From Candidatus Nitrosotalea sinensis (GTDB taxonomy: Archaea > Thermoproteota > Nitrososphaeria > Nitrososphaerales > Nitrosopumilaceae), in assembly GCF_900143675.1 (NCBI RefSeq), contig NZ_FRFC01000003.1, positions 62,001-126,000 on the forward strand: a stretch of 64,000 bases of DNA. The letters run 5' to 3'. Positions 39,586 to 42,903 of this stretch are shown here, one piece after another. Both the position numbers and the translations under genes were made by a program. The notes under the pieces were generated by a model. It made no database searches. It was not told where the DNA came from and worked only from the letters and a program-made list of their open reading frames with translations. Position 1 is the stretch's first letter; each line of letters opens with the position of its first letter.

Positions 39586-39672
39586 TTCAAATTGCAGAAA
39601 TACATTGCCAATTTGATATTAACAGAACGTCTGTAGAAAAGCTAAAGTAAATAACAATTCAGAGAATTATTC

Positions 39673-40137
39673 ATGTCGAAAGAGCTTCGGATCAAAAAAG
39701 GCGATGTAGAACTTGCCATACATTTCGATACCAAAGACCAGCTAAAAGAACGATTAGAGGATTATGAAGAGATTTCGAAGATTGTTGAAGAAAGATTAGG
39801 TGTTTCATTTGAATCTAAGAAAGCAATAAGAAAAGATCTAGAAGGCATATGCGATTTTGAGAATAACCATATCGTGCTCATTAAATCTCCATCTTCGAAA
39901 GTAAAGAAGGTGTGTCTAGTTTTACATGCATATGGCCCTTCTGGGGCAACTTTGGAAGAAATTACCCTAAGCAGTGGAGTTACAAACCCCTCAAGAAATG
40001 TCATAAACAATACAGCTAATAAAAAATATTTCAGAAGACTAGTGCAAGGAAGATACGCATTAAGTGATAAGGGGATATCCTTTGTTACGGATGAAATTTT
40101 ACCTGAGTTGAAAGGTGGAAATAATGGCACAAATTAG
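39673..40137 (+). CDS. island protein A: hairpin plus winged-helix (154 aa)
   Basis: I do not know this family. It begins with a basic strand pair (ELRIKKGDVELAIHF). A helical middle follows (KDQLKERLEDYEEISKIVEE), then a linker. The C-terminal part looks like a winged helix (LEEITLSSGVTNPSRN, then a basic wing RLVQGRYALSDKGISFV). It ends LPELKGGNNGTN, much like island protein C. It overlaps gene B by 14 bases, so translation is coupled. A DNA- or RNA-binding role is likely; the partner is unknown. Confidence 0.65.
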   Translation: MSKELRIKKGDVELAIHFDTKDQLKERLEDYEEISKIVEERLGVSFESKKAIRKDLEGICDFENNHIVLIKSPSSKVKKVCLVLHAYGPSGATLEEITLSSGVTNPSRNVINNTANKKYFRRLVQGRYALSDKGISFVTDEILPELKGGNNGTN

Positions 40138-40570
40138 AATTAAAACAAAAGTTGGAGAAGTTGCAATAGATTTTAGTGATAACAAAGATCTTGAAAATCA
40201 ATTATCTAAAATTGATTTTAAGGACTTGGAAAATATTGTAGCGAAAAGCGTACCTAACATATTACGTGTAGAAACAACAGTGATTGAAGAATTCAAAGAT
40301 CTTTACAGATTAGATTCTTCTGGCAATGTTCACCTGAATAAAATTCCGAAGAAAAAAGGCGATGCGATAAAACTGGCTGTCTTCCTTTCTGAAAAAGGTC
40401 TTTCAACTAACGAAGTAAAAACTTCTACAGGGATTTCAAACCCAAAGGCTTACATGAATAAAAAAGATTTCATAGAGAATGGAGATTCTTTTACCTTAGA
40501 AACAGAAGCTCGAAAAGATGTGCTAGAAAAGATAATTCCAAAATTAAGGCAGAATAATAAATCAGACTAG
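40124..40570 (+). CDS. island protein B: hairpin plus winged-helix (148 aa)
   Basis: A paralogue of island proteins A and C. AQIRIKTKVGEVAIDF is the hairpin start, followed by DLENQLSKIDFKDLENIV and a linker with DLYRLDSSGNVHL. A winged helix (LSTNEVKTSTGISNPKAYM) and KIIPKLRQNN close the protein. ATG 40124 is chosen because GGTGG lies 7-11 bases upstream inside gene A; ATG 40115 is three codons earlier. Its stop overlaps the convergent HEPN gene by 9 bases. Confidence 0.65.
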   Translation: MAQIRIKTKVGEVAIDFSDNKDLENQLSKIDFKDLENIVAKSVPNILRVETTVIEEFKDLYRLDSSGNVHLNKIPKKKGDAIKLAVFLSEKGLSTNEVKTSTGISNPKAYMNKKDFIENGDSFTLETEARKDVLEKIIPKLRQNNKSD

Positions 40571-41317
40571 AAACTTTTTACGTAGTTTGGATTCACCTTT
40601 ACCTTTTAATCTTAATTCACCTCTCTCAATATGACCATTACCCCTTAATTCCGATAAGCGCGCAGCTAAAACATTCTCTGGTATGCTAAATCCGCTTAAC
40701 ATGAGAGATTGTCTTAATTCATCATCTAATGGAGTCCTGGCACGAGTAACTTGATATCCAAAAATTACAAGCATAATTTGTTCGGTATTTTTCGGTTCTG
40801 CTGGAGTTGTTATTCTTACAAGATGTTTTCCTTCTATTTCTACCGGGTCGAATGAAACAGGTTCCTTTAATGACACATTAGTCTTGGCAAGCTCTTTTCT
40901 TACGTTATGAACAGATTTCTGCCACTCAGATTCTGTCATCTGTATGTTAAAGAGAATTCTAAACAATTCCTTGGCATCTTTCACATACTCATTGATCACT
41001 TTGTCTAGAACTGTTGTAATATCAGCACCATGGTAGAGATTATTTCTCGTATCATGAAATTGTTTTATTCTTTGGCTCAAATCAGAAGGAACTTTTCTAT
41101 TACCTTCCAAAATTCCCAGAATCTTGTAAAGTGCATCATTTGAGCTTAATTCTTTCTTTTGTAAGAGACTATTAGTTTTAGCATAAAACTTTAAACCGAA
41201 TTCAACAGCATTATCTATTACAATCAATGCCAATCTATTGCTAGAATCTAAAGTGCTTTCTTTGAGGGCAATTCCAAGAGTAATCTGCTCAATTATTTCT
41301 TTAATCCATAAATCCAT
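40562..41317 (-). CDS. HEPN-like domain fused to winged helix (251 aa)
   Basis: Residues 1-135 are all helix and carry FHDTRNNLYHGAD near 88-100, that is R91-x4-H96, the signature of HEPN domains that are often RNases in toxin-antitoxin and antiviral systems. Residues ~160-250 form a winged helix like those of island proteins A-C (RTPLDDELRQSL, then VLAARLSELRGNGHIERGE). It is the last gene of a minus-strand set, 3 bases after protein C. If active it would be a toxin or effector with its own nucleic-acid-binding end. HEPN domains can also be structural, so RNase activity is inference. Confidence 0.7.
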   Translation of the reverse strand: MDLWIKEIIEQITLGIALKESTLDSSNRLALIVIDNAVEFGLKFYAKTNSLLQKKELSSNDALYKILGILEGNRKVPSDLSQRIKQFHDTRNNLYHGADITTVLDKVINEYVKDAKELFRILFNIQMTESEWQKSVHNVRKELAKTNVSLKEPVSFDPVEIEGKHLVRITTPAEPKNTEQIMLVIFGYQVTRARTPLDDELRQSLMLSGFSIPENVLAARLSELRGNGHIERGELRLKGKGESKLRKKFLV

Positions 41318-41320
41318 AAT

Positions 41321-41770
41321 CTAACTACCATTGTTTAGTTTTTTCAATTTTGGAACTACCTCATTGATAATCCATGAAAGGCCAGCCGCATTGAGTTTGT
41401 AATAGCCACGTTCAAGTTTATCGAAATATTTTGAATTTCTCATATAATCCTGTGATTGTTTCACACCGCTAAACAGAGTAATGAGATCTGTCTTTAGAGG
41501 TTTAGGATCGTATGCATACAAAACTATTCCAATATTTTCAGTTTTAGTTCCTGGTCTTAGTATTGAGATAGAGCCATCATCATTAATTGTGTAAATATCT
41601 TCAAAGCCAAATTTTACTTTTGGTTTTTCTTTACCCTTTAGGTGACCAACTTTAGAATTTACAATTTCTATAACTTTATCTATGTTTGCAAGGCCTTTTT
41701 CTAAATCTGATACTTCATTGTATGGTATAACAACTTCACCAAATTCTGTTCTTATCCTAACTTCTGACAA
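41321..41770 (-). CDS. island protein C: hairpin plus winged-helix (149 aa)
   Basis: A paralogue of proteins A and B. SEVRIRTEFGEVVIPY is the hairpin start, DIYTINDDGSISIL the linker, then a winged helix (LKTDLITLFSGVKQSQDYM, then KLERGYYKLNAAGLSWI) and the end VPKLKKLNNGS. The start chosen is TTG 41770, because GGAGGT sits just upstream within the preceding gene; the frame is open to ATG 41785. It overlaps the 60-residue gene by 14 bases and precedes the HEPN gene by 3. Confidence 0.66.
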   Translation of the reverse strand: MSEVRIRTEFGEVVIPYNEVSDLEKGLANIDKVIEIVNSKVGHLKGKEKPKVKFGFEDIYTINDDGSISILRPGTKTENIGIVLYAYDPKPLKTDLITLFSGVKQSQDYMRNSKYFDKLERGYYKLNAAGLSWIINEVVPKLKKLNNGS

Positions 41771-41939
41771 TTTTGATACCTCCATTATTAATTGAATTCT
41801 GGATTAAAAACCAATATCCGAAAAGTTCCATCTCGCGTTTCTCATGATCCTCTAATTTACGCTCTACGATGTGCCAGAAATTGTTTGCATGTTTCTTTTC
41901 TATCGATTTTTTACCTTTTTGATCTTTTTTTCCAAACAT
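41757..41939 (-). CDS. island protein D: lysine-rich 60-residue protein
   Basis: Starts MFGKKDQKGKKSIEKKHANN: a strongly basic N-terminus, then an amphipathic helix with Trp and Glu (FWHIVERKLEDHEKREM) and a short hydrophobic stretch. Its last codons contain the GGAGGT that serves gene C. A TTTAAATA box ~28 bases upstream suggests a leaderless start of the D-C-HEPN operon. It could be an antitoxin-size partner, but nothing proves it. Confidence 0.52.
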   Translation of the reverse strand: MFGKKDQKGKKSIEKKHANNFWHIVERKLEDHEKREMELFGYWFLIQNSINNGGIKIVRS

Positions 41940-42131
41940 ACTCTCTCATATTATAGAATTCTTTTAAATATTAATGGTTTATAATAAAAATTGGAAAATG
42001 CTATTTAGCGAGTTAGTTAGATGGAATTAAAACGATGAATAATTCCATTAACATATCAGTAAGATTGCTAATCTAGAAATCATTTTCAATCAAAAAATGA
42101 AATCTTAATGCTTGTAATCTTAAAACTGTAT
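41940..42131. other. AT-rich spacer of the island
   Basis: 192 AT-rich bases with no supported gene. It holds the promoter of the minus-strand D-C-HEPN set at its left end. No tRNA remnant or direct repeat marking an attachment site is seen. Confidence 0.4.
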
Positions 42132-42743
42132 TCAAATACTTGGTCTAATCTTGTCTTCTTTTATTATCTTTGTAATTTTTTCCTTTGCCTTGTCTGAAAC
42201 CGATATTTTATCAAATAACGTCAACAACCGATTATCTTTCTTATTATCTTTCAGCCATTTGTTAATTACTCCTACAGAAAGATCAACTATTCGTTTTGAA
42301 GATTCTCCTAACTTATTATGTATATGCAAAATCTTACAATCAATTTCATATATCAAACGTTCCAGCGCAAGCCTCTCCTGAAAGGATTCTGCCTTGTCTA
42401 GTTGTTCACGTAATCTAGTTCTTTGAACTTCCAGTCGCTGCATATTGAAAATTATTACATTTTCAGGATTCAGAATATTACTTTTGTTGTATATTTTAGT
42501 ATACCAATAATCAATGTAACCGTTTACTGTATTTCTGTTTATTTTCATCAACTCTGAAATTTTTCTTGCAGAATAACCATACTCAAAATGTAGCTTGTAT
42601 ACTTCCTGTCTTCTTTTGTCCCGTTCAAATTTAGAATAAGGTCCACCATTTTTTGATCTTGTTTTAGATACTTGTTTCTTATTTTCTTCAATAAATTCAG
42701 CATCAACAACAGGTAATTCCAAATCTTCAGTTGTTATTTGCAT
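42132..42743 (-). CDS. helix-turn-helix protein of the island (203 aa)
   Basis: A 203-residue, mostly helical, basic protein. Residues ~50-85 carry a homeodomain-like helix-turn-helix (YGYSARKISELMKINRNTVN), like resolvase or terminase-small-subunit ends. A long helical segment (VQRTRLREQLDKAESFQERLAL) suggests a coiled coil for oligomerization. A family is not recognised. It is transcribed away from aspartate kinase. A perfect 14-bp palindrome lies just upstream of its TATA-like element and may be its own operator. Confidence 0.7.
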   Translation of the reverse strand: MQITTEDLELPVVDAEFIEENKKQVSKTRSKNGGPYSKFERDKRRQEVYKLHFEYGYSARKISELMKINRNTVNGYIDYWYTKIYNKSNILNPENVIIFNMQRLEVQRTRLREQLDKAESFQERLALERLIYEIDCKILHIHNKLGESSKRIVDLSVGVINKWLKDNKKDNRLLTLFDKISVSDKAKEKITKIIKEDKIRPSI

Positions 42744-42774
42744 TCTTACCTAATAAAATTTATGGTATATTACA

Positions 42775-42788
42775 GTACTGTACAGTAC
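42775..42788. promoter_or_regulatory. 14-bp perfect palindrome, candidate operator
   Basis: GTACTGTACAGTAC lies 32 bases upstream of the helix-turn-helix gene start (42743, minus), adjoining TAATATACC which would be its TATA box. The position overlaps the BRE side, a classic repressor site. The dyad fits a dimeric helix-turn-helix protein. Confidence 0.5.
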
Positions 42789-42903
42789 CTTCGTAAGAAA
42801 AATGGCATAGTTTGGCCTAGTCTTGTTATATGATCTAAGAGAAATTAGGCCTAAAGTAAGCCTATAAAAGATTTTAAGGATATCAAGTCGAGGTTATACT
42901 GAT

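Follow-up and report, generated by a model that had tools for sequence, protein, structure and literature searches.

A winged-helix-sharing HEPN protein in an accessory cassette between pcn and lysC of Candidatus Nitrosotalea sinensis: a candidate toxin or defence effector

The window analysed here is a stretch of 64,000 nucleotides from Candidatus Nitrosotalea sinensis (contig NZ_FRFC01000003.1, positions 62,001 to 126,000), in which an accessory cassette of ~3.3 kb encoding a HEPN-domain protein lies between the core genes pcn and lysC. The genome is archaeal, nearly complete at 1.6 Mb and of a Nitrosopumilaceae-type host, and the sampled congeners include a Candidatus Nitrosotalea-like metagenome-assembled genome (MAG). 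The cassette (39586..~42865, no strand) begins right after the pcn stop codon, with lysC beyond it. It holds six small genes described in an earlier note on this DNA, whose open reading frames and strands were all confirmed. On the plus strand, A (39673-40137) and B (40124-40570, with a start that overlaps A by 14 bp) encode hairpin-winged-helix proteins of 154 and 148 aa, respectively. Facing them on the minus strand, HEPN (40562-41317) encodes a 251-aa protein with a HEPN domain (residues 1-145) and a C-terminal winged helix (~165-251); this gene is convergent with B, and their 3' ends overlap by 9 bp. Directly upstream of HEPN, after a gap of 3 bp, is C (41321-41785, minus strand), encoding a third hairpin-winged-helix protein, and the start of C is overlapped by D (41757-41939, minus strand), a 60-aa orphan open reading frame with no credible homologue in our searches. 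The true start of C is probably the TTG at 41770, since GGAGGT stands 7 nt before it. D, C and HEPN probably form one operon with D as its first gene, and an AT-rich TATA-like stretch lies upstream of D. Searches of all six proteins against Pfam, PADLOC, NCBIfam and PHROGs gave nothing above the cut-offs, with weak helix-turn-helix matches for the sixth gene alone (HTH, described below). An Rfam scan gave no match, and a bacterial-type promoter scan gave matches no more than expected by chance.

In 21 of 29 same-genus loci (the window not being counted), the pcn-lysC spacer measured just 35-36 bp, and the closest relative by PCNA (G163, 98% identical) has an empty site with a spacer of 36 bp. 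On alignment to the empty site, homology stopped at the pcn stop codon and restarted at ~42866. By this comparison the cassette is a clean accessory insertion, and the accessory island proposed in the earlier note is borne out by the empty congeneric loci and the clean breakpoints. We found no terminal repeats or att sites of at least 10 bp at the cassette ends, no integrase, capsid or casposase genes within the 3.3 kb, and no relatives among viral contigs, phages or plasmids in the searches made.

The AlphaFold2 model of the HEPN protein had block means of the predicted local distance difference test (pLDDT) mostly between 72 and 93 over residues 1-140, with dips near 21-30 and 91-100, and pLDDT <50 past ~residue 150, with reasonable confidence for residues 1-145 only. 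The top Foldseek matches were HepT chains, with a template modelling (TM) score of up to 0.74 on target length and a root-mean-square deviation (rmsd) of 2.8. In the VIA comparison, which covered residues 1-128 of the model, the best match was a HepT toxin (Z 13.8, rmsd 2.4, 119 residues), a Z that helical bundles may attain from their arrangement alone; the first 20 rows were all HEPN or HEPN-like. As modelled, the 251-aa protein has the helical-bundle fold of the HEPN superfamily. The motif R91-x4-H96 is intact (RNNLYH), N92 follows the arginine and E39-x3-K43 is also present, in agreement with the superfamily motifs Rx4-6H, a polar residue after the R, and Ex3[KR] (PMC3710099). The HEPN domain with R91-x4-H96 that had been recognised previously is thus supported both by the fold match to HepT and by the residues themselves. 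For a CARF domain of the Csx1/Csm6 type, there was no Pfam match and a weak PADLOC match to the HEPN part, with no dedicated test made; the C-terminus is a winged helix instead.

A and C are 30% identical over 151 aa (E 1e-20) and homologous over their full length, and B and C are 28% identical (E 9e-10). Judged from these alignments, A, B and C are true paralogues, which agrees over their length with the hairpin start and winged-helix end that they had been proposed to share. None of the three matched a Pfam family above the cut-off. A profile built from A, B and C alone matched full-length relatives in other taxonomic families (E 1e-10 to 1e-15), and profile and joint tree both place them in a hairpin-winged-helix family of archaea that has not been described. 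Members of it occur in 70 of 349 Thermoproteota genomes at a cut-off of E 0.001. Outside the taxonomic family of the window genome, 32 of 46 loci hold at least two members, several of them beside gatE. Arrays of at least two hairpin-winged-helix genes, often near gatE, were seen across many Thermoproteota (L038-L066, L184-L202). The tree groups all three paralogues with a chromosomal protein of 108 aa from congeners, to which B is sister (clade support 100/98; 33% identity, E 4e-15). Of 36 other congeners, 19 encode this hairpin protein (L033, L062, L159), and the window genome has no copy at the expected place, where the 77-aa neighbour is still found.

BLAST was too weak to link the C-terminus of the HEPN protein with the winged helix of A, B and C. 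Hairpin-winged-helix profiles built without HEPN scored this C-terminus at 22-23 bits versus 5-7 for the best shuffles (500 shuffles), a larger profile gave 22.5 bits versus 16.4 for the best shuffle, and hhalign aligned it to the family with 94.8%, E 5.5e-8 and a score of 46 versus at most 17 in 60 shuffles. On these profile scores, the HEPN protein ends in a homologue of the winged helix found in A, B and C, with the HEPN domain replacing the hairpin, as the earlier note had read it.

Thaumarchaeota MAGs and one Candidatus Nitrosotalea MAG are the sources of the named relatives of the HEPN protein. Within the host's taxonomic family, HEPN-domain relatives are about 100-160 aa long and lack the winged helix, and R-x4-H is broken in all 15 short relatives listed; the fragment L020 has a possible R-x6-H. 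A tandem-HEPN protein (L021, in G062) keeps R-x4-H (RNQLYH and RNELVH) and lies beside tyrosine-recombinase (integrase) fragments. An alignment scan of genome contigs for HEPN gave five short relatives only, and a profile of the HEPN relatives gave only chance matches against PDB sequences. The refuting case named in the earlier note, a HEPN protein without the paralogues in most genomes, arises in form only: there are short HEPN relatives unaccompanied by the paralogues, but these carry no winged helix, and R-x4-H is mostly gone from them.

No second genome with the complete gene set emerged from the searches, which spanned 37 congeners, 200 members of the taxonomic family and about 350-400 genomes of the phylum. 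Outside the taxonomic family, one genome, G357, has a HEPN relative (HEPN profile, 398 phylum genomes). The gene of this relative (RCDLYH) and that of a 228-aa protein converge; the latter protein matches the hairpin-winged-helix family end to end (hhalign E 3.9e-5, score 35 versus at most 20.5 for shuffles) and scores 10.8 bits with the hidden Markov model (best of 500 shuffles, 4.2). Helicase and methylase genes of the Hma defence type, matching PADLOC HmaA and HmaB, lie about 2.4 kb from the pair. The G357 pair may support recurrence, short of proof, as one weak second case.

In G073 (L148), the pcn-lysC slot holds cas8b, cas7, cas5, cas3, a CRISPR array, cas4, cas1 and cas2, a complete type I-B system, and the slot of G067 (L153, L156) is filled by another type I-B set, which has an array of its own. 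In G123 (L155), tied to the slot through its lysC side alone, an array and cas4-cas1-cas2 lie beside an HTH gene and lysC; in all these cases the CRISPR type was assigned from the tested genes, with cas4 and the arrays read from sequence alone. The slot of G079 (L149) carries a TnpB-type/IS605-like element, and other species have unrelated genes. On this gene content the pcn-lysC gap is an insertion hotspot in this genus, and a defence hotspot as well, because relatives keep type I-B CRISPR-Cas (G073, G067) and cas4-cas1-cas2 (G123) there. Type I-B CRISPR-Cas or a HEPN nuclease has been described on elements integrated in thaumarchaeal genomes (PMC6563490), and 'pcn' is not mentioned in that paper.

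The sixth gene, HTH (42132-42743, minus strand), encodes a terminase-small-subunit-like DNA-binding protein and is a resident of the slot outside the HEPN module. Orthologues 65-68% identical precede lysC in G073 and G123, both without HEPN, and G067 has a broken copy; matches occur in 38 of 200 genomes of the taxonomic family (the window genome counted), and many of these matches lie at other genomic positions. HTH is likely of terminase-small-subunit origin, because a relative (L121 in G002, 374-2106) adjoins a terminase large-subunit-like gene (phrog_2, E 1e-6), and solo copies may derive from tailed viruses, as remnants or satellites. Upstream of HTH we found a putative operator, TGGCATAGTTTGGCCTAGTC (42803..42822, no strand), consisting of two direct half-sites 10 bp apart. 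This element is probably bound by HTH itself. A direct-repeat motif, TGGCATAGTTTGGC[AC]TAGT, stands near HTH homologues in at least 10 other loci (L118-L131, L137, L141), and within the window the paired copy occurs once, upstream of HTH and not near A or D; this distribution suggests autoregulation of the HTH gene alone. A palindrome, CAGTACTGTACAGTAC, is located at 42765-42790, near the putative operator. HTH had been cast as the autoregulator of the HEPN module, a role that we rejected since its orthologues share the slot with CRISPR-Cas in the absence of HEPN, sit elsewhere and have their own conserved operator.

In our preferred reading, the cassette occupies a defence hotspot as an accessory conflict module, and the HEPN protein would be a ribonuclease toxin or defence effector held by partners that share its winged helix; we give this slightly less than an even chance of being correct. 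The HEPN domain would dimerise and cleave RNA, so that growth stops or an infection is aborted. Its keeper might be C, which precedes it in the operon and would be made first, possibly together with A and B. These proteins might bind the HEPN protein via the common winged-helix type or, alternatively, occupy its DNA site, thereby keeping it inactive or repressed; infection or loss of the partner would then release it. HTH is a separate and probably self-regulated resident of the slot. Antitoxin and toxin genes often stand as C and HEPN do, with the partner just ahead of the toxin, and the layout is that of a type II toxin-antitoxin pair, a compact operon with the small partner C 3 bp upstream of the candidate toxin. 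The sequence data suggest a toxin-antitoxin or antiviral module. For this part of the earlier proposal speak the fold, the motif, the operon order, the insertion and the CRISPR-Cas slot, whereas the HTH autoregulator did not stand, and a role of A/B/C as 'DNA/RNA-sensing paralogues' is conjectural: members of their family occur widely and, elsewhere, without HEPN. A stronger version, a new archaeal HEPN toxin or defence module whose effector shares the winged helix with keepers recruited from an old tandem family, with G357 as a diverged second example, seems to us rather improbable; the case for a new system consists of one clear example and one weak one (G357).

Several observations weigh against a HEPN module with winged-helix keepers. 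Besides the absence of the full set from other genomes, a HEPN relative was found in none of the 46 hairpin-winged-helix loci outside the host's taxonomic family, within the stretch examined. The C-terminus of the HEPN protein was modelled with low confidence, and the AlphaFold2 model of C (three sequences) had a pLDDT of 42. In G357, the match of the partner is distant, the C-terminus of the HEPN relative does not match the family winged helix by profile, and its gene (L183, 9240-9994) is split by a frame break close to a seven-A run, which may reflect a sequencing error, a pseudogene or a programmed frameshift. The HEPN-free loci would also fit unlinked cargo, in which HEPN, A/B/C and HTH entered a permissive slot separately, A/B/C being displaced copies from a family of archaeal chromosomal regulators and HEPN acting alone or not at all. 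The contents of the slot do differ greatly between species, and B is nearest to the 108-aa chromosomal protein that the window genome is missing. However, chance co-residence leaves the winged-helix likeness between the HEPN protein and its neighbours unexplained, and the 3-bp spacing of C and HEPN, the gene overlaps of 9-14 bp and the G357 pairing also argue against separate entry, which we regard as possible but on the doubtful side.

Alternatively, the HEPN protein could be a transcription regulator and no toxin, binding DNA or RNA like MtlR, a HEPN-fold repressor, and forming hetero-oligomers with A/B/C. The loss of R-x4-H from the short relatives makes non-catalytic use likely in the family, and MtlR structures were among the fold matches (Z about 9 in VIA). 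The cassette copy nevertheless keeps its R and H, unlike the 15 short relatives listed, as do the tandem-HEPN protein in its mobile context and the G357 relative, and we hold a purely regulatory role to be unlikely. That all six genes lie in a single 3.3-kb insertion could point to one complete system, with a HEPN effector, A-D as sensors and HTH as autoregulator; given the independent distribution of HTH and its single paired operator described above, we consider such a system very improbable.

HEPN RNases rank among the most common effectors of biological conflict, and to our knowledge the antiviral systems of ammonia-oxidising archaea are little known; the pcn-lysC gap can now be flagged as a defence hotspot of these organisms. 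MNT proteins and ParA-like ATPases are among the HEPN partners that have been described (PMC3710099). If the preferred reading is true, a partner sharing the DNA-binding fold of the effector itself would represent a new mode of control, and the cassette would give a first functional handle on the hairpin-winged-helix family, which occurs widely in Thermoproteota and lacks an entry in Pfam.

Among known systems, HepT/MntA resembles the cassette in its HEPN fold with R-x4-H and in a partner encoded upstream in the same operon. The HepT motif is RX4HXY, whereas the cassette protein (RNNLYHGA) has A at the Y position, and the partner of HepT is an MNT nucleotidyltransferase, for which no cassette protein has a Pfam match or the GSX10DXD motif. 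On account of the missing Y and the missing MNT gene, we rejected membership in HepT/MntA. The candidate toxin of the cassette further differs in its added C-terminal winged helix, and its putative partners are hairpin-winged-helix proteins. The archaeal family of the latter is normally tandem, chromosomal and without HEPN, whereas in the cassette it stands on inserted accessory DNA and includes a member that bears a HEPN domain. HEPN-wHTH fusions of the EC042_2821 and SWT1/Abi2 types, known from a defence context (PMC3710099), likewise combine HEPN and a winged helix in one protein, but they are larger, restriction-linked and bacterial, with nuclease or helicase domains, whereas the cassette protein has 251 aa and two domains. 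Finally, unlike the integrated thaumarchaeal elements (PMC6563490), the cassette has no integrase, capsid or casposase gene, and what it would share with them is defence cargo on accessory DNA of ammonia-oxidising archaea.

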